NCBI GenBank assembly: GCA_019120475.1
Contig: DWVA01000159.1
Coordinates: forward strand, 1-37,032
Origin: Candidatus Blautia intestinipullorum
GTDB lineage: Bacteria > Bacillota > Clostridia > Lachnospirales > Lachnospiraceae
Length of the DNA stretch: 37,032 nt
Direction: 5' to 3'
In this document: in pieces, positions 6,306 to 22,899 of the stretch
Position numbering within the stretch: position 1 is the stretch's first letter
How the letters are laid out: the number at the start of each line of letters is the position of its first letter
Notes under the pieces: model-generated
Databases searched by the model: none
Seen by the model: only the letters and a program-made list of their open reading frames with translations
Told to the model about the DNA's origin: nothing
Program-made: the position numbers and the translations under genes

Positions 6306-6329
6306 ATATTTAATTTCATCTTTCAAATG

Positions 6330-6600
6330 CAGTGACAGGGAGGAGTACATAATTCTCAGATGCCCAGAGAGGAGACGGCAGGTGGAAGTCTTCGTGAAGG
6401 GATTATGGAAGTAGCCCTCGAGCAGTGGACTGAACGCATCCGGCGGATGCAAGTAGGCTTCAACGTTTCCCGCGTTACAGGGAAGCGGTATCGGACGGAA
6501 GTCCCGTACCGGCAGAGTGCAGAGATTTCTCTGAATTTAGGTGGTAACACGGATGTATCATTCGCCCTGAGCATTGGATGCTCAGGGCTTTCTTTTTTTA
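6330..6600 (+). ncRNA. T-box riboswitch leader upstream of ilvBN
   Basis: AGAGAGGAGACGGCAGGTGGAAG stem I-like segment, GGAAGTAGCCCTCGAG, and the conserved T-box AATTTAGGTGGTAACACGG (about 6534-6552), followed by a terminator hairpin; upstream of a branched-chain amino acid gene. Confidence 0.9.
6564..6598 (+). terminator. T-box intrinsic terminator
   Basis: gccctgagcat-tgg-atgctcagggc perfect 11-bp stem followed by tttcttttttt. Confidence 0.9.
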
Positions 6601-9940: not shown

Positions 9941-10210
9941 GCTGCTGCCTCCTGTATGAAATTGATGCCAGCGTGAGATAACCGGACGCTTTATTTTCTA
10001 TTAAAACACCAATAAAAGATAAAGACAATAGAGTTATTATGAATAAAAAAATCGTAAAAGGATTTTTTTGTTAAAAATGGAAAGATGTGCGGCGAAAAAA
10101 ACACAAGAATTAAAAAAATTCTTCAAAAACTATATATAAAAATACAGAAACTATGGTACAATTAGATTTGCTAAAGGGTTTGTAAAACAATGTGTAAGGA
10201 AGGTGAGCAA

Positions 10211-12172
10211 TTGGAAAACTATACCAAGTATAAGTTGAAAAGTAATGATGAACTGAAATCTTTGCTGGCCGACAAAGATCATCTGTTTGTCATTGCCTGC
10301 AACAAGTGCTTCAAGGAATTTGAAACCGTTGATGAACCGGATTGCGGGGAGTTTGAGAAAATTGCTGCGGAACAGGGAAAGACCATTACAGGCAGCGCCA
10401 AGGTGGACTTTCTGTGCAACAAAACGCTGACAGAAAAGAAACTTAAGGATATGATCCCGGAGGGTACGGAGAATGTGATCGTGATCTCCTGCGGCCTTGG
10501 TATCCAGACAACCGCGGAGTTAGCGGGAAAACCAGTATATGCGGCCAGCAATTCTCTGAATTACAGAGGACATCACGGAATGGCTCTTACGAAAAAGAGC
10601 TGCGATGCCTGCGCGCAGTGCTATCTGAATATTACCGGAGGAATCTGTCCTATCGTCGACTGTTCCAAGAGTCTGGTAAACGGTCAGTGCGGCGGCGCGA
10701 AAAACGGAAAATGTGAAGTGGACAGCAGCAAGGACTGCGCATGGGAAAAAATTTATTACAGACTGGAAAAACAGGGACGTCTTGAGGAGTTCTTAAACCA
10801 GCCGGTACAGATCAGAGATTACTCCAAGGTGAACGTCAAAGAGGTCAACGATTATGTAAAAGCTATCCGTGAAAATCGGCTTGACGGCTACTACGGCGGC
10901 GTTCATCCTTCAGAGCGCAAGGAATTCTCCGAGCATCTTGCCCTGGAAAGATTCCCTGAGCCGGAAGAGGTTGTGATCCCGCTTTCTATGCATGCGGGAG
11001 CTCCGGCGGAACCGACGGTAAAGGTAGGCGATACTGTAAAAGTAGGCCAGAAGATCGGCGAGGCGGCAGCCTTCATCAGCAGTCCGGTACACTCCAGCGT
11101 AAGCGGTACGGTTATTGCTATTGAACCACGTAAACATGCAACAAGAGGCGAGTGCATGTCTGTTGTCATCCGTTCAGACGGTAAAAACACTCTGCACGAA
11201 TCTGTACAGCCTCACAAGGATCTTGACAGCCTGACTCCTGACGAGATCGTAGATATCGTCCGCGAAGCCGGAATTGTGGGTATGGGCGGAGCCGGATTCC
11301 CGACTTCTGTTAAATTAAAGCCTGCGAAGCCGGTGGATACCATTCTTCTGAACGGCTGCGAGTGCGAGCCGCTTTTGACGGCGGACCACAGAGTGCTTCT
11401 GGAATATGCGGATGACGTGATCTATGGACTTAAAGCCATGATGAAGACTGTAAACGCGGAAAAGGGTATTATCGTAATTGAAGACAATAAACCGGACGCT
11501 ATTGAACTTCTGGAAGCGAAAACCGCAGAGTATGACAATATAGAAGTGGTGACAGCAAAAACGAAATATCCTCAGGGCGCTGAGAAGATGCTGATCAAGC
11601 GCGTTCTGAAAAGACAGGTTCCAAGCGGCGGTCTGCCGGCGGACGTAGGCTGTGTGGTAGCCAATGTCAGCACTACGAAAGCAATCTCCGACGCGATCCA
11701 GAAGGGTATGCCTCTGATCGAGCGTGTTGTAACAGTTACGGGAGAGAAACTGAAAAAGCCGGGCAACTATATTGTGAAGATCGGTACCAATACAAAAGAT
11801 CTGATCGATTACTGCGGCGGCACTACAGACGACGACTATATGATCAAGGCAGGCGGGCCGATGATGGGCTTTGACGTTCCGGATCCCAATGTGCCGATCA
11901 TGAAGGGTTCCAACGGAATCATCGTTATCGATACAGATGAGACAAAAGAGCAGCCGTGTATTAAGTGCGGACGCTGCGTGGACGTCTGTCCTATGGAACT
12001 TTCACCTCTCTATTTCTCCAAGTATGCCGATGAGGAGAACTGGCAGGGAATGAAGGAAAAGAACGTAATGGACTGCATCGAATGCAGATGCTGCGAATAT
12101 ATCTGTTCCTCCAAGATTCCGCTGGTCAGCAAGATCAAAGCCGGCAAAAATGCAGTAAGGGGGATGAAGTGA
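10211..12172 (+). CDS. Fusion of MetV-like (methylene-THF reductase C-terminal, Cys-rich) domain with RnfC-like NADH-binding/2x[4Fe-4S] domain (RnfC2-type subunit of acetogen methylene-THF reductase)
   Basis: Residues ~1-210 match the downstream MetV (CDACAQCYLNITGGICPIVDCSKSLVNGQCGGAKNGKCEVDSS); the C-terminal part has RnfC features (GIVGMGGAGFPTSVKL, CIKCGRCVDVCP, CIECRCCEYICSSKIPLVSKIKAGK). TTG at 10211 follows an AAGGAAGGTGAG SD; the ORF-track ATG at 10190 is an alternative start. Confidence 0.88.
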   Translation: MENYTKYKLKSNDELKSLLADKDHLFVIACNKCFKEFETVDEPDCGEFEKIAAEQGKTITGSAKVDFLCNKTLTEKKLKDMIPEGTENVIVISCGLGIQTTAELAGKPVYAASNSLNYRGHHGMALTKKSCDACAQCYLNITGGICPIVDCSKSLVNGQCGGAKNGKCEVDSSKDCAWEKIYYRLEKQGRLEEFLNQPVQIRDYSKVNVKEVNDYVKAIRENRLDGYYGGVHPSERKEFSEHLALERFPEPEEVVIPLSMHAGAPAEPTVKVGDTVKVGQKIGEAAAFISSPVHSSVSGTVIAIEPRKHATRGECMSVVIRSDGKNTLHESVQPHKDLDSLTPDEIVDIVREAGIVGMGGAGFPTSVKLKPAKPVDTILLNGCECEPLLTADHRVLLEYADDVIYGLKAMMKTVNAEKGIIVIEDNKPDAIELLEAKTAEYDNIEVVTAKTKYPQGAEKMLIKRVLKRQVPSGGLPADVGCVVANVSTTKAISDAIQKGMPLIERVVTVTGEKLKKPGNYIVKIGTNTKDLIDYCGGTTDDDYMIKAGGPMMGFDVPDPNVPIMKGSNGIIVIDTDETKEQPCIKCGRCVDVCPMELSPLYFSKYADEENWQGMKEKNVMDCIECRCCEYICSSKIPLVSKIKAGKNAVRGMK

Positions 12173-12173
12173 T

Positions 12174-12797
12174 ATGTTGATTACCCAGTTAAAAGAAAAA
12201 GAAACCATCGCGTCTCTGACAGAGGGCAAAAAAGTCTTTATCATTAACTGTCATGGATGCAAAGAGGTTCATTTCCCGGAAAAAGAAGCGGAAGCGATGG
12301 AGAAAGAAATGGCTGCCGAAGGAAAGGTAACAGGGGTCCTTACGACAGATTACATATGTAATCCGGATAATATGAAGCTCCGTCTCCAGAAACATATGGC
12401 GGAAATCGAAGCCGCTGACGCTGTGCTTGTACTTTCCTGCGGAGTGGGCGTTCAGACCATTTCAGAGTATCTGGAGGATAAACCGGTATATGCAGCCTGC
12501 GATACTTATCCGCTGCCCGGATATCAGGGAGTGACTCCTCTTGAATACGACTGCGATCAGTGCGGCGAATGCTATTTGAACCTGACCGGAGGGATCTGCC
12601 CCATCACCGCCTGTTCCAAGAGCCTTGTCAACGGCCAGTGCGGAGGTTCAAAAAACGGCAAATGCGAAGTGGACAGCAGTATGGAATGCGGATGGGAGCG
12701 CATTTACAGACGCCTGGCCCAGTTAGGCCGTCTCGATGTGCTGAAATGTCCCACTCAGATCCGTAATTTCGCCACTGACGAAGAAGTTTCCAAGTGA
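12174..12797 (+). CDS. metV: MetV-like methylenetetrahydrofolate reductase C-terminal domain protein (Cys-rich)
   Basis: 207 aa; CDQCGECYLNLTGGICPITACSKSLVNGQCGGSKNGKCEVDSSMECGWERIYRRL; starts immediately after the RnfC2-like gene and precedes metF. Confidence 0.85.
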   Translation: MLITQLKEKETIASLTEGKKVFIINCHGCKEVHFPEKEAEAMEKEMAAEGKVTGVLTTDYICNPDNMKLRLQKHMAEIEAADAVLVLSCGVGVQTISEYLEDKPVYAACDTYPLPGYQGVTPLEYDCDQCGECYLNLTGGICPITACSKSLVNGQCGGSKNGKCEVDSSMECGWERIYRRLAQLGRLDVLKCPTQIRNFATDEEVSK

Positions 12798-12832
12798 TGA
12801 GAAACGTGTGAAAGACCTTTCAGGAATCTCCT

Positions 12833-12855
12833 GTCTGCCGCGGCAGACGCGGCAG
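12833..12855. repeat. GC-rich palindrome/hairpin in the metV-metF intergenic region
   Basis: gtctgccgcggcagac (perfect 16-bp palindrome, 12833-12848) overlapping an alternative 8-bp stem ctgccgcg-gcaga-cgcggcag (12835-12855). Confidence 0.7.
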
Positions 12856-12895
12856 TCTGCGGGATATGATTTTAAGATGATTGGAGTAAAATAAA

Positions 12896-13777
12896 ATGAA
12901 AATTACAGAAGCATTTGAACGTGGAGAATTTGTAGTTACGGCGGAAGTAGGACCGCCGAAAGGATTTCATATTGAACATATGCTGGAGGAGGCAAAGACC
13001 TATCTCAGCGATATCACAGCAGTAAACGTAACAGATAATCAGTCTTCTGTTATGCGCCTTGGTTCCCTGGCAACCTGCAAAGCCTTAAAGGACGAGGGAC
13101 TGACTCCTATTTTCCAGATGACCTGCCGTGACAGGAACCGTATCGCTCTGGAATCCGACCTTTTAAGCGCAGCAATGTTCGGGATCGAGAACCTTCTGAT
13201 CTTAACAGGAGATCACACGAAGCTGGGAGATCATCCTCAGGCAAAACCTGTTTTTGACCTGGATTCCGTATCTCTTCTCCATACAGTGAAGCTGCTGGAA
13301 TCCGGCGTGGATCTGGGCGGAAACGAGCTGGTAGGCGAGCCGCCGAAGTTTGCCAAGGGCGCTGTCGTATCCCCCTGCAGCGATTCTGTAGATGTTCAGC
13401 TTGCGAAGATGGAGAGAAAAGTTGCCGCAGGCGCGGAGTACTTCCAGACACAGGCTGTTTATGAGCCGGAGAAATTTATCCAGTTTATGGAAAAAGCAAA
13501 ACAGTTTGGCAAACCTGTTCAGCTTGGAATCGTAATCCCGAAATCTGTGGGAATGTGCCGTTACATGAACGCAAACGTTGCCGGAATCCACATTCCGGAG
13601 GATATGATCAATGAGCTGAAAGCAGATAAAGAAAAGACAAAAGCCGGTATCACCGGAGTTGAGATCGCCGCGCGTATTATCAGAGAATGCAAGCCGTACT
13701 GCCAGGGCGTACATATCATGGCAATGGGCTGGGAGTCCAAAGTACCGTCTCTTCTGGAACAGGCAGGACTCAGATAA
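12896..13777 (+). CDS. metF: Methylenetetrahydrofolate reductase
   Basis: 293 aa; FVVTAEVGPPKGFHIEHMLEEA, QMTCRDRNRIALESDLLSAAMFGIENLLILTGDH, EYFQTQAVYEPEKF. Confidence 0.93.
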   Translation: MKITEAFERGEFVVTAEVGPPKGFHIEHMLEEAKTYLSDITAVNVTDNQSSVMRLGSLATCKALKDEGLTPIFQMTCRDRNRIALESDLLSAAMFGIENLLILTGDHTKLGDHPQAKPVFDLDSVSLLHTVKLLESGVDLGGNELVGEPPKFAKGAVVSPCSDSVDVQLAKMERKVAAGAEYFQTQAVYEPEKFIQFMEKAKQFGKPVQLGIVIPKSVGMCRYMNANVAGIHIPEDMINELKADKEKTKAGITGVEIAARIIRECKPYCQGVHIMAMGWESKVPSLLEQAGLR

Positions 13778-13892: not shown

Positions 13893-15281
13893 ATGGCAAA
13901 GTACAGATGCAGTGTATGCGGCTACATTTACGATGAGGAGAAGGAAGGCGCTCCTTTTTCTGAACTGAAGGAATGTCCGGTATGTCATCAGTCCACGGAA
14001 AAGTTTATCGTTTATGAGGAAGACCATGGTATGGAGCCGCCCCGTGAAAAAGAGCTGAAGCTGGAGTATCCAAGAGAGTTTGTCCGTCAGGATGAATCCT
14101 GCAGATACATGAAAGAGATCCATGAGATGGCCGTGACAGGAAAAAGTATCTCCGCGTCTATGGGAACGGAGCTTCCTATGCCATCCTGGGACGATATTCT
14201 CATCCTGGGAGCGCAGCTTGATCCTATGCCCCTAGAGGAGGGCGCGCCTGTAAAAACGACAACAGTGATCGGAAAACATGCGGAAAAGCCGCTGGTTCTG
14301 GAGAATCCGGTGTATGTTTCCCATATGTCCTTTGGAGCTTTATCAAGAGAGGCGAAAATTTCACTGGCAAGAGGCTCCGCCATGGCAAAAAACGCCATGT
14401 GTTCCGGCGAAGGCGGAATTCTTCCGGAGGAGATGCAGGCGGCTGACAAGTATATTTTCGAGTATGTGGGAAATCTTTACAGTGTAACTCCTGAGAATCT
14501 CAGAAATGCCGACGCTATAGAGATCAAGATTGGCCAGGGTACAAAACCCGGTATGGGAGGCCATCTTCCGGGAGAAAAGGTTACCCGGGAGATCAGCGAG
14601 GTAAGAAATAAGCCTATGGGAAAAGATGTGATCGCTCCTTCCAGATTTCCCGGTATCAACACAAAAGAGGATCTGAAAAATCTCATCGCGCAGCTCAGAT
14701 ACGCCTCAGAAGGCCGTCCTATCGGCGTAAAGATCGCGGCGGGAAGGATAGAGAGAGATCTGGCCTTCTGCGTTTACGGAGAGCCGGACTTTATTACCAT
14801 AGACGGGCGCGGCGGGGCTACGGGCTCGTCTCCAAAACTCTTGAGAGATTCCTCCAGTGTTCCTACAGTTTATGCTCTTCACAGAGCAAGAAAATATCTG
14901 GACAGCATCCATTCCGACATCAGCCTGATCATTACAGGAGGCCTTAGGGTCTCTTCGGATTTTGCAAAGGCCATCGCCATGGGCGCGGATGCGGTGGCAG
15001 TTGCGTCTGCGGCCCTGATCGCAATGGCCTGTCAGCAGTATAAGATCTGCGGTACAGGAATGTGTCCTATGGGAATCGCCACGCAGGACGAGGATCTCAG
15101 AGCCCGTCTTCATGAAGACGCGGCTGCGGCGAGAGTTACGAACTTTCTGAACGTTTCGCTGGAAGAGCTGAAAATGTTTGCGAGGATCACGGGACACGAG
15201 AATCTGCATGATCTTTCCGTGGAAGATCTGTGTACGATAAGCAGGGAGATCAGCGAATATACAAACATACCTCACGCATGA
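13893..15281 (+). CDS. Rubredoxin-domain / FMN-binding glutamate synthase-like (GltB central domain) oxidoreductase
   Basis: 462 aa; N-terminal rubredoxin YRCSVCGYIYDEEKEGAPFSELKECPVCHQ, then GltS FMN domain (SFGALSREAKISLARG, GEGGI, IKIGQGTKPGMGGHLPGEKV, DGRGGATGSSP) and CQQYKICGTGMCPMGIATQD Fe-S motif; no glutamine amidotransferase domain. Confidence 0.88.
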   Translation: MAKYRCSVCGYIYDEEKEGAPFSELKECPVCHQSTEKFIVYEEDHGMEPPREKELKLEYPREFVRQDESCRYMKEIHEMAVTGKSISASMGTELPMPSWDDILILGAQLDPMPLEEGAPVKTTTVIGKHAEKPLVLENPVYVSHMSFGALSREAKISLARGSAMAKNAMCSGEGGILPEEMQAADKYIFEYVGNLYSVTPENLRNADAIEIKIGQGTKPGMGGHLPGEKVTREISEVRNKPMGKDVIAPSRFPGINTKEDLKNLIAQLRYASEGRPIGVKIAAGRIERDLAFCVYGEPDFITIDGRGGATGSSPKLLRDSSSVPTVYALHRARKYLDSIHSDISLIITGGLRVSSDFAKAIAMGADAVAVASAALIAMACQQYKICGTGMCPMGIATQDEDLRARLHEDAAAARVTNFLNVSLEELKMFARITGHENLHDLSVEDLCTISREISEYTNIPHA

Positions 15282-15347
15282 TCTTGGGTTTGCCTGTTGT
15301 TGGCTTGTTTTGAAACTATACTGCTAAGAAAAATAAGGAGGTTAGTC

Positions 15348-16427
15348 ATGGAAATAAAAGAAAAACAATTTTTGGGAATAGAAGCCGGATGCAGCGCTCT
15401 TTCCTGGGAAACACAGGATGGAAAGCATCTTTGGGGACGCAATTATGATTTTGACCGTCTGGCAGAGGGAAGCGGAATGATCTTTCTTCCGCGGGAAACG
15501 GCGTATTTTGGAGTAAATGGTCCGGAAGGAACAGATTTTTCATGCACCTCCAGATATGCCTGCGCCGGAGTGGGACTGCTTTTATCCCCAAGTCCGGTAC
15601 TTTATGAGGGAATGAATGAGAAAGGGCTTATGGGCGGACAGCTTTATTACCGCGGATTCGCCGGATATGGGAAAGAGTCCTGTCCGGGCACCGATCCCAT
15701 TCAGCCGCCTTTCCTTGTATATCATCTTCTGGCGCAGTGCGCTACTGTGGAAGAAGCGGTTCGCTGTCTGGAAGAAGAATTGACCCTGGTGGACGTGCCG
15801 ATGATGGGAACGGTATCTCCGCTGCATTGGGCCTTCCATGATAAAACCGGGGAAACCGTTGTAGTGGAGCCTGATAAAGAGGGGCTTCACATTTACCGGA
15901 ATACGCTGGGGATCATGACAAACAGTCCGGGATATCCATGGCACAGGCTGAATCTTTTGAATTACGCAGGCATCAGAGATCTGGACTATGCTTCGGTGGA
16001 TCTGGACGGAGAGTCCCTGGAACAGTGCTTTTCCGGCAGCGGATGCCAGGGACTTCCCGGAGACTGGAGTTCTCCGTCCCGGTTTGTGCGTCTTGCCTTT
16101 TTGAAAAAGTATGCTCTTCCCGGAAAAAACGAGGAAGAAGGGATCAGCCGGATGTTCCATCTTTTTCAGAGTGCAGCCTTCCCTCTGGGAATGGTCCGCG
16201 TAAGCCACAAAAGCCATGTGACAGAGCTTGATAAGGATGTGGTTCCTTACGATTATACAGTGTATACCAGCATTTACTGTGCGGAATCTCTCCGCGCGTA
16301 CTGGACGACTTATGAAAACCAGCAGATACAGTTTCTGGATCTGGCGGCTCTGCTGGAAAGCAAAAAGCCGTTTTCCATTCCGCTTAGCCGGGAGCCTGTA
16401 TTTAAAAACGCAACGCCGGAGCTGTAA
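15348..16427 (+). CDS. Linear amide C-N hydrolase, choloylglycine hydrolase / penicillin V acylase family (Ntn hydrolase)
   Basis: Start ATG 15348 after AAGGAGG. Ntn-type residues: Cys15 in GCSALSWETQDG, GRNYDFD, GMNEKGL, MTNSPGYPWH, SPSRFVRLAFL. Confidence 0.85.
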   Translation: MEIKEKQFLGIEAGCSALSWETQDGKHLWGRNYDFDRLAEGSGMIFLPRETAYFGVNGPEGTDFSCTSRYACAGVGLLLSPSPVLYEGMNEKGLMGGQLYYRGFAGYGKESCPGTDPIQPPFLVYHLLAQCATVEEAVRCLEEELTLVDVPMMGTVSPLHWAFHDKTGETVVVEPDKEGLHIYRNTLGIMTNSPGYPWHRLNLLNYAGIRDLDYASVDLDGESLEQCFSGSGCQGLPGDWSSPSRFVRLAFLKKYALPGKNEEEGISRMFHLFQSAAFPLGMVRVSHKSHVTELDKDVVPYDYTVYTSIYCAESLRAYWTTYENQQIQFLDLAALLESKKPFSIPLSREPVFKNATPEL

Positions 16428-16469: not shown

Positions 16470-17846
16470 ATGTTTCATATTATTCCGGGGAATTTTTTTG
16501 TTCCTCTGTCATCGCCAAATAAAACGGTATACTGGGACTGCATATGCAAATTGTATTCTGTGATGGAAAACCAGCTTTCCTTTGGCGTGGAAAGAGAAGT
16601 GCTGGCGGATGAACTGCAGTACTATTTTGAACAGTCGGCAGCGGCGGATATCGTGGATGAAGACTTTTCCGGGGCGGACAGCAGAGGGAAAGCAAACGGA
16701 ATCCTGAGGCGGCTGGAATTTTATGGCTGGATTGAAATTGAGACGGACAAAAGTTATGTACAGAGGGTGAATTTTAAAGAATACTCTGTGAAGCTGATCC
16801 GTACTCTTCTGGATATTTCGGAGGGAAAGCAGATCGAGTATCAGGGATATATCTATACAATCTACAGCCTGGTCCGGTCGAATACGGATCACCCGGGAAT
16901 CGTACTGATGCAGATTCTGGAAAATACAGACCTGCTTATCACGGGGCTGAAAAATCTGAATTCCAATATCAAACGTTATATCGACGATCTGACACGGCAT
17001 AAGACGGTGGCAGAGATCATGGACGCCCTGTTTAATGATTATATCACCAATATTGTGGACAAGGCATATCACCGGCTTCTGACTTCGGATAATGTGTCAA
17101 AATTCCGGCCGGAGATCATCGACAGGCTGGAGAGCAGGAGCAGAAGCCGGTCTTATCTGCAGATGGCAGCGGCGGAGCTTGCGGAGATGAAGGAGATTAC
17201 GGAAGAGGCAGCGAAGGAACTGGTATTTAAGTACCTGCACGAAATTATAGAAGCCTTCCGGAATATGGACGATATTCTCAATGAGATCAATCAGAAAAAT
17301 ACCCAGTATCAAAAGGCCGCGGTGAACAGGGCAAAGTTCCTGCTTTCCGGAGACGAGGATGTGCGGGGACAATTAAAGGAGATTCTTCTGGGAATTCACG
17401 AAAAGATCAATGAAGAAGAGATGAATTTGGGCGGTATTTACGAGATCAGTTTTCTGGAAGGGCTGGTACGCCTGTATTCCTGCAGTTTTCTTGACGAGAA
17501 ATCCTTCTATTCGCCTACAGAGGGACGGAAGGAATTTGTTCCTCAGAAACTGGAGGCACACGAGATAGACGAAGAGGCGCGGCGGCGAAAGCTTCAGAAA
17601 ATGATGGAGAAAATGAAAAGAGTTCTAAGCGCCGGAAAAATCGAAAGCTATGTTCTGGAGCAGATGGGAAACTACCGGGAAATGCAGGCTTCGAAGCTGC
17701 CTTTAGGCAGCAGTGAAGATTTTGTGAAGATCATATATGTCCGCCTGTATGGACAGAGAAAGAATCTGAAATATAAGGTGGAGCCGGGAGAGATGACGGA
17801 AGTAAACGGGTTCCGCTTCCGGGATTTTAAGATTAGGAGGAAATAG
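16470..17846 (+). CDS. jetA: Wadjet system protein JetA (kleisin/MukF-like subunit, DUF5716-type)
   Basis: 458 aa; MFHIIPGNFFVPLSSPNKTVYWDCICKLYS opening resembles the JetA family; first gene of a four-gene jetABCD block. Confidence 0.85.
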   Translation: MFHIIPGNFFVPLSSPNKTVYWDCICKLYSVMENQLSFGVEREVLADELQYYFEQSAAADIVDEDFSGADSRGKANGILRRLEFYGWIEIETDKSYVQRVNFKEYSVKLIRTLLDISEGKQIEYQGYIYTIYSLVRSNTDHPGIVLMQILENTDLLITGLKNLNSNIKRYIDDLTRHKTVAEIMDALFNDYITNIVDKAYHRLLTSDNVSKFRPEIIDRLESRSRSRSYLQMAAAELAEMKEITEEAAKELVFKYLHEIIEAFRNMDDILNEINQKNTQYQKAAVNRAKFLLSGDEDVRGQLKEILLGIHEKINEEEMNLGGIYEISFLEGLVRLYSCSFLDEKSFYSPTEGRKEFVPQKLEAHEIDEEARRRKLQKMMEKMKRVLSAGKIESYVLEQMGNYREMQASKLPLGSSEDFVKIIYVRLYGQRKNLKYKVEPGEMTEVNGFRFRDFKIRRK

Positions 17847-17848
17847 GT

Positions 17849-18478
17849 GTGGAACTGCTGGATAAAATGCTTCAAAGAGATAAAGAAAATTTTCGGAGAA
17901 TCTGCAGCCGCCTTCTTTCCTGCTGTTTTCTCTGCAAATCAAACGCATCAAATAAATCGGATTATTATTTTGTCCTGAAATACAGAAGTGAGTTTAAAAC
18001 ATATCTGGAGATTCTCGGTTATCGTCTGGAGATAAATGAGGAGCTGGGCGTGATCCAGCTTACCAATGCTTATAACTATAACCGGCTGAACCTGAAACTG
18101 TACGAGTCGGTAATCCTTTTGATACTCAGGATTCTTTATGATGAGAAAAAGCGGGAATTATCAGTCAGCGATGAGGTGATCGTTAATCTGGGGGATATCC
18201 AGGATAAATATCTGAGTCTTCAGATACGGGAAAAAATGATCGATAAAACCACAATGAGGAATGCTTTGAGCCTGTTCCGCAGATTTCAGCTTATTGAAAC
18301 GCTGGACAGAGATCTGGGAAACGAGGAGTCCAGGATTCTGATCTATGATTCTATTCTTATGGCTGTGCGTATTGACGATATCAGGAAAGCCTATGAGAAG
18401 CTGGAAATTTACAGAAAGGGAAAACAGACAGATGAAGAAACTGACGAGAATGAAGCTGATCAACTGGCATCGGTTTGA
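17849..18478 (+). CDS. jetB: Wadjet system protein JetB (MukE-like, DUF4194-type)
   Basis: 209 aa; GTG start 2 nt after jetA stop with AGGAGG RBS; YRLEINEELGVIQLTNAYNYNRLNLKLYESVILLILRILYDEKKRELS; position between jetA and the SMC gene. Confidence 0.85.
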   Translation: MELLDKMLQRDKENFRRICSRLLSCCFLCKSNASNKSDYYFVLKYRSEFKTYLEILGYRLEINEELGVIQLTNAYNYNRLNLKLYESVILLILRILYDEKKRELSVSDEVIVNLGDIQDKYLSLQIREKMIDKTTMRNALSLFRRFQLIETLDRDLGNEESRILIYDSILMAVRIDDIRKAYEKLEIYRKGKQTDEETDENEADQLASV

Positions 18479-21400
18479 AGACTGCATGATTGATTTTGGG
18501 GATTCCACGCTGCTTTCCGGAGAAAACGGAGCCGGAAAATCTACACTTCTGGACGCGATCCAATTTGTTGTCACCTGTTCCGCCAATTCCTTTAATAAGG
18601 CTGCCCATGAGAACGGCAAGAGAAAACTTACGGGATATATACGGTGCAAAACCGGGAAGGAAAACCGTCCTTATGAACGTACCGGAGAGGTGACTGCCCA
18701 TGTAGCTCTGGAGTTTTATGAAGAAAGCAGACAGAGATATTTTATTGTGGGAGCCGTTGTAGATTCCGCCTCTGAAGGTCAGGAGACTGTAGGCCGTTAT
18801 CTGATGGATAATATCAGACTGTCGGAAGATATGTTTTTTAAAAAGGATCATTCTCCCAGATCTATTTCTGAATTCCGGTCCTATAATAAGAAGATCAAAC
18901 AATGGATGAAAACCCAGGCAGAGGCAAAGAAGATGATCAAGTCCAGATTCGGCAGGATCGAGGATAAATTTTTCAGTCTCATTCCCAAGGCTCTGGCGTT
19001 TAAGCCTATTGATGACATTAAGGATTTTGTCTATTCTTATGTGCTGGACGAAAAAGAAGTGAATATTGACGTGCTCAGAGAGAATGTGCGAACCTATCAG
19101 GATCTGGAAAGAACGCTGGAATCTGTACGGAAGCGCATGGAAAAACTGGAACAGATTGAAAAATTTCATGATGAAGCTGTGGACCATATTCGCAAAGATG
19201 AAATGTATGTTTATTTTCTGGCGAGGGCGTCTCTGGATATTACGAAGAACAGGATTGAGAAGCTTCAGGCAGAGATGGGGGCGGAAGAATACCGCCTTCA
19301 GGAGACGGAAAGAGATCTGGAGGCTGCGGTAAGGGAAAAAGAACGGCAGCAGGAGATTGAGACGAATCTACGGGTGGAATTGAAGCAGAATAAAGATTAC
19401 CTGGCTCTGGAAGAGCAGGAAAAGGTCCTGGGGCGTCTGAAAGATGAGGAAAAAGCTTATCTGTCCGAAAAAAGAGAGCTTCTTGTCAGTGTGAAAAGAT
19501 CATTGAAGAGGACGGATCAGCTTCTGGAAATCACAGATGTGGACGAGTGCGTCGCAAAGTATAAAGATATTTTTGAAAAGGCGGAAACTATGCAGGATAC
19601 CGCTGCTGCAAGAGACGCGCTGGAACAGGTGATCCGGTATAAAAAGAAAATGTATGATAAGGTGCAGAGAAAACTGGCGGAAGAGCAGATTTATCTGCAC
19701 GCCCGCCGCCAGGAAATGCAGGAGCTGGACCATAAAATCGGCGATCTGGAAAGAAAGAAGCTTTCCTACCCGAAAGCAGTAACCAGGCTGTTGGAAGAAA
19801 TTGGAAAGGAATTTGCCAGACTGGGGAGAAAAGCGGAGCCCTGTATCCTCTGTGAAGCTTTGGAAATCCGCGATGAAAGCTGGCGGAACGCTGTGGAGGG
19901 TTATCTGAATACACAGCGTTTTTATGTACTTGTGGAGCCGGAAAATTTTGATATCGCTCTTGGCATTTATGATCGTCTGAGACGGGAGAAGAAGGCCTAC
20001 GGCGCAGGATTGATCAACGTTCAGAACATGGAGCAGTACGACAACGCTCCGGAGGGTACACTGGCGGAGATGGTCACATCAAAAAATAAATATGCCAGAC
20101 AGTTTATTAATATGGTTCTTGGAAAAGTACAGATGTGCGGGCGCTATGAGGATCTGAAGAAATATACGGTATCTATCACAAAAGAATGTATGAAATACCA
20201 GAACCGTGTAGCCAGCGCTATCCGTCCAGAGATTTTTAAAGTTCCGTTTATTGGGAAAAACGCTTTCAAAGTGCAGTTGGAACAGGCCAGGGCAGAGAAA
20301 AAACGTCTGGCCGGAGTCATCGAGGATAGGGAAAAGAACCTGAGAAATCTGGAACAGATTACAGAACCTTTGGAAACGGATGCCGAGATCGATATCCGCT
20401 ACCGCCTGGATGTGATCGGCAGACTGTCCAGAGTACGATCGGACATAAAGCAGTGCAAAGATAATATAAAAACATTGAAAGAGAATTCCACCCTGATCCA
20501 GAAACAGATCCAACTGGAAGCACTGGCGAAAATCCGTGGAGAATTGGAGCAGAAGGTAGGAAATCTGAATAAGGCCCAGGGAAGAATCCAGGAAAAAATC
20601 GATGAGAAGAAACGGCTGATCCTGGAAAGTACGGAAGAGGAGCGGGGAAAGCAGGCGGAGCTTAAAGAAATTGAAGAAAAAGCGGGGCAGGCTGCCGCTT
20701 CCTGGCAGAAAGATTATGAAAAGCAGACTGCGCAGAAATCCTATATACAGTTCCGGGAAAACTTTGAGCGGCGGCAGAAGGCCAACTGGACTCTGCGTGA
20801 CAAAGCCATTGAGCAGATGCGGAGCTATATGATCGAATACAAGACGGAATATAATTTCGGAGCGGCGCCTACTATGGAGGGATTTCCGGAATTTGAGAAA
20901 ATATATGAAAGACTGCGGACATCAGAGCTTCTGGAATACGAAGAGAAGGTGCAGTCCGCCAGACAGTCTGCGGAGGACGAATTCAGGGAACAGTTTCTTG
21001 CCAAGCTTCAGGAGAATATGAAGCAGGCGCAGAATGAATTTAAAGAGCTGAACAAGGCATTAAAGGACATTGTGTTCAGCAATGAAAAATACGAGTTTCT
21101 TTATATGCCAAGCCGCAGGCACCGCAGATATTACGACATGATCATGGACGATTTCAATATGGTGCAGGGAGAATCTATTTTCAGCGGGGTATTTCACGAG
21201 ACACATAAGGAAGTCATAGAAGAGCTTTTTGACCGTCTGACGATTGATAATGACAATAATGCAAAAACGCTGGATGAATTCACCGATTACCGCACTTATA
21301 TGGACTATGATATCAGGATCCTTCACACAGACGGAAGCTATTCCCTGTATTCCAAAGTCTGTGAGGAGAAGAGCGGAGGAGAAACACAGACGCCCTTCTA

Positions 21401-21674
21401 TGTAACGGTAGCGGCTTCTTTTGTCCAGCTTTACAGCAATAATATAGGCGGAGAAGCGGCCGGTCTGGTAATGTTTGACGAGGCGTTCAACAATATGGAC
21501 GACGAGAGGATAGGAGGCGTACTGGAGTTCCTGAACAGGCTTCCTCTGCAGATGATCATTGCCGCGCCGCCGGATAAAATCCAGTATATCAGTCCGTCTA
21601 TGCAGGAAACCTTACTTGTAATGACAGATGAAAAAGTAAGTTATGTGGAGGAATATTTCAATGGCGCGGTTTGA
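18432..21674 (+). CDS. jetC: Wadjet system protein JetC (MukB/SMC-like ATPase)
   Basis: 1080 aa from ATG 18432; Walker A GENGAGKSTLLDAIQF near the N-terminus, long coiled coil, signature EEKSGGETQTPFYVTVAASF, Walker B GLVMFDEAFNNMDDERI. Overlaps the jetB 3' end by 47 nt. Confidence 0.93.
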   Translation: MKKLTRMKLINWHRFEDCMIDFGDSTLLSGENGAGKSTLLDAIQFVVTCSANSFNKAAHENGKRKLTGYIRCKTGKENRPYERTGEVTAHVALEFYEESRQRYFIVGAVVDSASEGQETVGRYLMDNIRLSEDMFFKKDHSPRSISEFRSYNKKIKQWMKTQAEAKKMIKSRFGRIEDKFFSLIPKALAFKPIDDIKDFVYSYVLDEKEVNIDVLRENVRTYQDLERTLESVRKRMEKLEQIEKFHDEAVDHIRKDEMYVYFLARASLDITKNRIEKLQAEMGAEEYRLQETERDLEAAVREKERQQEIETNLRVELKQNKDYLALEEQEKVLGRLKDEEKAYLSEKRELLVSVKRSLKRTDQLLEITDVDECVAKYKDIFEKAETMQDTAAARDALEQVIRYKKKMYDKVQRKLAEEQIYLHARRQEMQELDHKIGDLERKKLSYPKAVTRLLEEIGKEFARLGRKAEPCILCEALEIRDESWRNAVEGYLNTQRFYVLVEPENFDIALGIYDRLRREKKAYGAGLINVQNMEQYDNAPEGTLAEMVTSKNKYARQFINMVLGKVQMCGRYEDLKKYTVSITKECMKYQNRVASAIRPEIFKVPFIGKNAFKVQLEQARAEKKRLAGVIEDREKNLRNLEQITEPLETDAEIDIRYRLDVIGRLSRVRSDIKQCKDNIKTLKENSTLIQKQIQLEALAKIRGELEQKVGNLNKAQGRIQEKIDEKKRLILESTEEERGKQAELKEIEEKAGQAAASWQKDYEKQTAQKSYIQFRENFERRQKANWTLRDKAIEQMRSYMIEYKTEYNFGAAPTMEGFPEFEKIYERLRTSELLEYEEKVQSARQSAEDEFREQFLAKLQENMKQAQNEFKELNKALKDIVFSNEKYEFLYMPSRRHRRYYDMIMDDFNMVQGESIFSGVFHETHKEVIEELFDRLTIDNDNNAKTLDEFTDYRTYMDYDIRILHTDGSYSLYSKVCEEKSGGETQTPFYVTVAASFVQLYSNNIGGEAAGLVMFDEAFNNMDDERIGGVLEFLNRLPLQMIIAAPPDKIQYISPSMQETLLVMTDEKVSYVEEYFNGAV

Positions 21675-22899
21675 CGTCAGAATTCTGAATAAGCTTTTAG
21701 ACTCCTATGAGCGCAGCAGTCTGGCAAAGGGAACAAATAAGGTTGCGGTACATATTGATTTCCGGTTCAATAAAAAGACGGTTCCGGAATACTTTGACGA
21801 AAGTTCTCTTGCCTATGAGGAGATCCATGACCGGGCCCATGAACTTGAGGAAAAAGGGTTTGTCCGGATTATATGGAAACGGGGAAAAGAAGATCATATT
21901 ATTGAAAAGCTGATCCTGAATGAAAAAAAAGTCACGGAAATATATCAGTATCTGGGAAGAACTTCTCATGGGGATTATGTCAGGAACACGCTGAAGCTGG
22001 TTGGATCCTTTCGGGAACAATGTACTGCTCCGGTTGCCGGAAAATTTCTTGACTGGCTGGAGGAACGGCTGCGGGGGGATCTTCCGGTAAAAGAATTTAT
22101 AGATCTGACTGATCCGGAAGAGACGGAACGACTGATCCGGGCAGTCCAGGCAGTGGAGGAGAACAGAGAGGAGCGCTATGTAAGAGAGTTTTCTATAAGT
22201 GTCTTTTCGGATAGTAAGATTTTTGAAGGACTGCACGGAAAGGTGGGGAAAATTTTTCGGAGATTTTCCCCGGAATTTCAGGAGGCGGATACGGATGAAA
22301 TCCTGGCGGAATATGGAATCTATCATACGCCGAACTACGTTTATTTGAAAGGCCAGGGAATATTGTATTTGGGAACGGACAGAAGGGAAAAAGTGAGCCT
22401 GTCACTTCTGAAACAGGGAATCGGGATTTCCGGCGATGATCTTTCCGATATCCGGATCGGAGGCACAGAAGCGGTAAAGAAAGTGATCACCATAGAGAAT
22501 CTTACCACCTTCTTCCGCTGGCAGGAGGAAAACGCCCTGATCATTTATCTGGGCGGTTATCATAATAAAGTAAGGAGAAGTCTGCTGAAAGAAATTTATG
22601 AAATTCTGCCGGATGCAGAGTACCTGCACTTCGGGGATATTGATGTGGGCGGTTTTGAAATCTACCGGGATCTTTGCCAAAAGACGGATATTCCGTTTCG
22701 CCTGTATCATATGGGAATAGAAGAACTGGAAAAGTACCGGGATTATGGGAAAAAACTGACAGAGAACGACAGGAAGCGCCTGAAGCTGCTGATAGATAAG
22801 ACAGAGAAAGAAAAGACAGAATATATTCAGACGCTGAAATATATGGAAGATCAGGGAATCAAACTGGAACAGGAGTGTATCGGTGATCATGAAACGTAG
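21661..22899 (+). CDS. jetD: Wadjet system protein JetD (Toprim-type nuclease, DUF3322/DUF2220)
   Basis: 412 aa from ATG 21661; Toprim-like TIENLTTFF, YLHFGDIDVGGFEIYRDL; overlaps the jetC stop by 14 nt. Confidence 0.9.
   Translation: MARFDVRILNKLLDSYERSSLAKGTNKVAVHIDFRFNKKTVPEYFDESSLAYEEIHDRAHELEEKGFVRIIWKRGKEDHIIEKLILNEKKVTEIYQYLGRTSHGDYVRNTLKLVGSFREQCTAPVAGKFLDWLEERLRGDLPVKEFIDLTDPEETERLIRAVQAVEENREERYVREFSISVFSDSKIFEGLHGKVGKIFRRFSPEFQEADTDEILAEYGIYHTPNYVYLKGQGILYLGTDRREKVSLSLLKQGIGISGDDLSDIRIGGTEAVKKVITIENLTTFFRWQEENALIIYLGGYHNKVRRSLLKEIYEILPDAEYLHFGDIDVGGFEIYRDLCQKTDIPFRLYHMGIEELEKYRDYGKKLTENDRKRLKLLIDKTEKEKTEYIQTLKYMEDQGIKLEQECIGDHET

Follow-up and report, generated by a model that had tools for sequence, protein, structure and literature searches.

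The closest described counterpart of the locus examined here is the methylene-THF reductase of Acetobacterium woodii (Awo_c09290-09310). In PMC8760232, which summarizes Bertsch 2015, the purified complex is given as a 1:1:1 assembly with 2 FMN, 23.5 Fe and six predicted [4Fe-4S] clusters, and the enzyme as NADH-dependent, concluded to be soluble, and neither reducing ferredoxin nor being stimulated by it. For the RnfC2 subunit, Poehlein 2012 (PMC3315566) described an N-terminal extension of 220 residues that is "surprisingly similar (59%)" to MetV, and suggested docking to Rnf or substitution for MetV as its possible role. The identity of this MetV-like extension to MetV was later given as 41% (PMC8515935), and PMC8760232 repeated the fusion architecture and named Blautia schinkii and B. 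wexlerae as carriers of the type III enzyme. For B. luti, the use of a methylene-THF reductase that depends on NADH was reported (PMC12773636). The MetV-RnfC fusion is thus already known and not new, since it was reported by Poehlein 2012 and repeated in two 2021 papers.

Two further systems share parts with the type III enzyme. Type II MetVF reductases, as in Clostridium ljungdahlii and Eubacterium callanderi, have MetV and MetF in common with it but lack RnfC2, and in vitro they depend on ferredoxin (PMC8515935, PMC8760232). RnfC of the Rnf complex shares the FMN/NADH motif, the SLBB domain and two 4Fe-4S motifs, with 43-49% identity to RnfC2 in the aligned RnfC set; in contrast, it has no MetV domain and is a subunit of a membrane complex.

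Organization and identity of the locus

The window, i.e., the whole stretch of 37,032 nt that was analyzed from Candidatus Blautia intestinipullorum, contains rnfC2, metV and metF in this order and on the same strand (Table 1). Direct reading of the open reading frames agreed with the layout given in the original prediction.

Table 1. Features of the rnfC2-metV-metF locus, in window coordinates
Feature	Position	Strand	Basis
Shine-Dalgarno sequence (AAGGAAGGTG) 5' of the conserved TTG	10196..10205	+	read directly; kept upstream of TTG in relatives
rnfC2, MetV-RnfC fusion, putative NADH-oxidizing subunit of type III MTHFR, TTG start	10211..12172	+	Pfam/NCBIfam domains
N-terminal MetV-like domain of RnfC2, approx. 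residues 1-205	10211..10825	+	46% identity to MetV; Cys conservation in 86 RnfC2
Block common to RnfC2 N-domain and MetV (GGICPI..CSKSLVNGQCGG.KNGKCEVDSS)	10637..10738	+	29/34 residues identical; family-wide conservation
RnfC domain: barrel-sandwich, FMN/NADH motif (GMGGAGFPT), SLBB, two Cx2Cx2Cx3C 4Fe-4S motifs (C583-593, C622-632)	10889..12169	+	Pfam, invariant columns, model vs 9eri
metV, free-standing; begins 1 nt past rnfC2 stop	12174..12797	+	DUF5981; 1-nt gap in 76/76 loci
metV-metF spacer with strong hairpin in this genome	12798..12895	+	fold -30.6 kcal/mol, z -2.9
metF, methylene-THF reductase catalytic subunit	12896..13777	+	Pfam MTHFR PF02219 1.2e-36

The rnfC2 gene comprises 654 codons including the stop (653 residues) in a single intact frame, in which Pfam matched DUF5981, RnfC_N, Complex1_51K, SLBB and a 4Fe-4S dicluster domain. 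DUF5981, the C-terminal domain of MetV, was also matched in the free-standing metV. The protein matched the NCBIfam model rnfC TIGR01945 at 521.8 bits, and both the FMN/NADH motif and the two 4Fe-4S motifs were found in its RnfC domain. The predicted fusion of two complete domains, MetV-like and RnfC, was therefore borne out by Pfam and alignment. Residue numbers of RnfC2 are counted from TTG 10211, and the domain searches began seven residues further upstream.

The genome also encodes a separate RnfC, located with RnfD and RnfE in an rnf operon on another contig (C84). The rnfC2 gene lies outside this operon and its product has the N-terminal MetV domain, which sets it apart from the RnfC of an Rnf complex.

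The same genes, order, fusion, 1-nt gap and TTG start were read in an A. woodii-like genome (G291, whose identity as A. woodii is inferred), and its proteins were 69%, 66% and 76% identical to those of the window for RnfC2, MetV and MetF, respectively. The A. woodii-like operon is situated directly 3' of fhs-fchA-folD, whereas the trio of the window stands alone between ilvBH/thioesterase genes and a rubredoxin-glutamate-synthase-like gene. In B. wexlerae, B. schinkii and B. luti (the latter with an rnfC2-metV-metF operon at locus L112) the same genus-level system was found with fusions 80-81% identical to that of the window, although the flanking genes differ. The nearest relatives were Candidatus Blautia excrementipullorum, with 94% across the query, and other Blautia. 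On the basis of domain content, gene order and likeness to A. woodii, the original reading of an acetogen-type MetF/MetV/RnfC2 system proved right, and the locus very probably encodes the type III enzyme of an acetogenic Blautia, i.e., a methylene-THF reductase with three subunits that depends on NADH.

The trio was kept together in 71/71 relatives with room around the locus. No conserved neighbors were found beyond it when the relatives' loci were compared, and the flanking genes of the window were almost never shared; a conserved neighborhood was consequently dropped as a functional clue. Directly 3' of metF, a rubredoxin-like domain is fused to a glutamate-synthase-type FMN domain (13893-15281), and this gene was near the trio in only 2/64 relatives. 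It is followed by a choloylglycine hydrolase gene (bile salt hydrolase-like, 15297-16427) and by a Wadjet-type defence operon with JetA, DUF4194, SbcC-like ATPase and JetD (16470-22899). On the other side, a T-box leader (6323-6572, Rfam RF00230, 112 bits) overlaps the acetolactate synthase ORF where it begins at 6360; translation of ilvB probably starts at a later position than the ORF suggests.

In structure modeling, the RnfC part of the RnfC2 model matched A. woodii RnfC (9eri) with a TM of 0.89. The model was good only over this part and most of the first approx. 117 residues; residues 118-186 and 189-234 (the cysteine-rich part and the linker) had a pLDDT below 50, and for this reason the model does not place the N-terminal domain. 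The MetV model (pLDDT 76) gave no significant fold match in the PDB, and a search by sequence of the PDB copy used returned no structure of MetV, a MetV homologue or an RnfC2-MetV-MetF complex.

Distribution and genome context

The fusion was present in 31/60 genomes of the genus, and free MetV accompanied it in 31/31 carriers; the other 29 genomes had no MetV match at all. At the class level it was found in 7/391 genomes, with free MetV in 7/7, and 14 genomes had MetV only. In the phylum sample of 399 genomes, only the genome of the window carried the fusion. Free MetV is thus kept with every fusion, which indicates that the N-terminal domain of RnfC2 is no replacement for MetV.

The genome of the window is a MAG of 83% completeness. 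It contains two genes for anaerobic CODH catalytic subunits (C184, C145), each cut at a contig end, and formyl-THF ligase in two pieces (contigs C10 and C111, positions 1-204 and 180-556), so that the gene is either split or present as two partial copies. No AcsB was found in this assembly, which is 83% complete and breaks off within both CODH genes. Since AcsB was present in every sampled Blautia genome that has RnfC2 and is at least 90% complete, its absence here is most simply read as incompleteness of the MAG, and a loss of acetogenesis was not concluded.

Role of the N-terminal MetV-like domain

In the alignment, all 12 MetV cysteines were invariant in 86 RnfC2 N-domains (residues 30, 33, 69, 94, 131, 134, 137, 146, 151, 160, 168 and 176) and in 83 type III MetVs, and 11/12 were also invariant in 14 MetV-only (type II-like) relatives. 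Their complete invariance in the 86 N-domains indicates constraint on metal binding. Poehlein 2012 (PMC3315566) assigned eight conserved cysteines to two clusters. The remaining four (C26, C29, C62 and C89 in MetV) sit in the predicted alpha/beta half of the MetV model and could be ligands of the reported zinc. In addition, each paralogue has its own fixed residues, e.g., HGMALT in the RnfC2 N-domain versus QGVTPL in MetV.

Within the type III identification, the N-terminal domain is likely to be a diverged MetV paralogue that was fixed as an extra module for electron relay and docking, linking the RnfC domain to MetV-MetF. Earlier work has shown RnfC2 to be the entry point of NADH and MetF to be the subunit that reduces the substrate. 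In the proposed path, NADH would be oxidized by the RnfC-domain FMN and electrons would pass to the two 4Fe-4S clusters at the C-terminus of RnfC, then, in the presumed order, to the N-domain clusters. From there they would reach the clusters of free MetV and the FMN of MetF, which would reduce methylene-THF to methyl-THF. The N-domain would perhaps pair with MetV in the way that two MetV copies may meet in (MetVF)2 enzymes.

The strongest competing explanation is a purely structural domain, a dimerization or docking scaffold for MetV whose clusters lie off the electron path. The many positions that are fixed in both copies and differ between the RnfC2 N-domain and MetV are in its favor, as is the C. 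ljungdahlii MetVF enzyme, described in PMC8760232 as a dimer of MetVF heterodimers. However, the invariance of 12/12 cysteines in 86 sequences goes beyond the needs of a scaffold, and this explanation is considered unlikely.

Much less probable still is the proposal that RnfC2 replaces both MetV and RnfC, docking on membrane Rnf instead of RnfC1 and feeding MetF directly in an ion-motive step (model B of Poehlein 2012). It was put forward in PMC3315566 and discussed in PMC8760232, and the RnfC-like domain is 44% identical to the RnfC encoded in the rnf operon of the same genome. The constant retention of free MetV speaks against it, and so do the 1:1:1 stoichiometry, the concluded solubility and the missing ferredoxin reduction or stimulation recounted for the A. 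woodii complex in PMC8760232. RnfC2 departed from RnfC-fixed positions slightly more in the ferredoxin domain, a difference that was not significant (p=0.07). A related idea, in which the N-domain would let RnfC2 switch partners and dock MetV-MetF on the membrane Rnf machinery, is judged highly improbable.

Origin of the two MetV copies

Alignment of the RnfC2 N-terminus to free MetV of the window gave 46% identity across 201 residues (E=1e-48), far above chance. MetV of MetV-only relatives, which are type II-like, was approx. 36-41% identical to that of the window by local alignment. The "near-identical block" of the original prediction is real, but does not point to a recent copy: only 17 of the 29 identical residues use the same codons in both copies, and when the RnfC2 N-domain is compared with MetV from any two genomes, likeness is about 80% in the block and 35% in the rest of the domain. 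With the codons only partly shared and a similar likeness in any two genomes, the similarity of the block is attributed to family-wide constraint. Within and between genomes, respectively, block identity was 0.800 and 0.785, and identity outside the block was 0.347 and 0.346. These values suggest possible slight homogenization of the block, with little or no gene conversion.

In the MetV-domain tree, rooted at midpoint, the RnfC2 N-domain and MetV formed two sister clades (support 96/97 and 99/99) spanning several families, and type II MetV was separate from both type III clades (100/100). The tree thus places the RnfC2 N-domain and type III MetV as descendants of one old duplication, which would have taken place before type III spread across these families. 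A recent duplication in this lineage, to which the 34-residue block might point, has a negligible probability given the two clades across several families and the within-genome identity outside the block, which is no higher than that between genomes; strong gene conversion is ruled out by the same tree and identity tests. An artificial joining of two genes, by a frame error or in the assembly, is likewise ruled out, as the same full-length fusion occurred in 79/80 relatives from independent assemblies, including isolates of B. schinkii, B. wexlerae and B. luti and the A. woodii-like genome, and the contig of the 80th ends inside the gene.

Translation signals and spacing

The start codon of rnfC2 was TTG in 90/90 loci from at least three families, including the A. 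woodii-like genome; behind this count stand 86 collected RnfC2 sequences in 69 clusters at 95% identity. A Shine-Dalgarno-like sequence preceded the TTG in each of the relatives' rows that were read. The in-frame ATG at 10190 was rejected as a start because, unlike TTG 10211, it was not conserved. In contrast to rnfC2, metV started with ATG in 94/96 and metF in 72/72 cases. Exactly 1 nt lay between the rnfC2 stop and the metV ATG (window 12170-12174) in 76/76 loci, as it did in the A. woodii-like genome, and the metV-metF spacer was not conserved in length (13-289 nt in relatives).

The strictly kept rare TTG suggests tuned initiation of rnfC2. Together with ATG in metV and metF and the constant 1-nt gap, it also suggests that weak rnfC2 initiation followed by translational coupling may fix the subunit ratio.

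Discussion

The presence of the MetV-like domain is no novelty, as it had been published for the one characterized RnfC2, that of A. woodii, and also occurs in 86/86 relatives. As for its functional explanation, only a docking hypothesis was found in the literature searched. To the published description are added here the 12 invariant cysteines, the old duplication seen in the tree, a fusion never found without free MetV, the TTG start in 90/90 loci and the 1-nt gap in 76/76.

It has long been asked how the reduction of methylene-THF in acetogens is tied to energy conservation, and RnfC2 is the NADH-entry subunit. If true, partner switching by RnfC2 would couple methylene-THF reduction to ion pumping in type III acetogens. 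The comparison narrows the choice: the extra MetV domain, which is old, retains every metal ligand and never takes the place of free MetV, would act either as a relay or in docking only.
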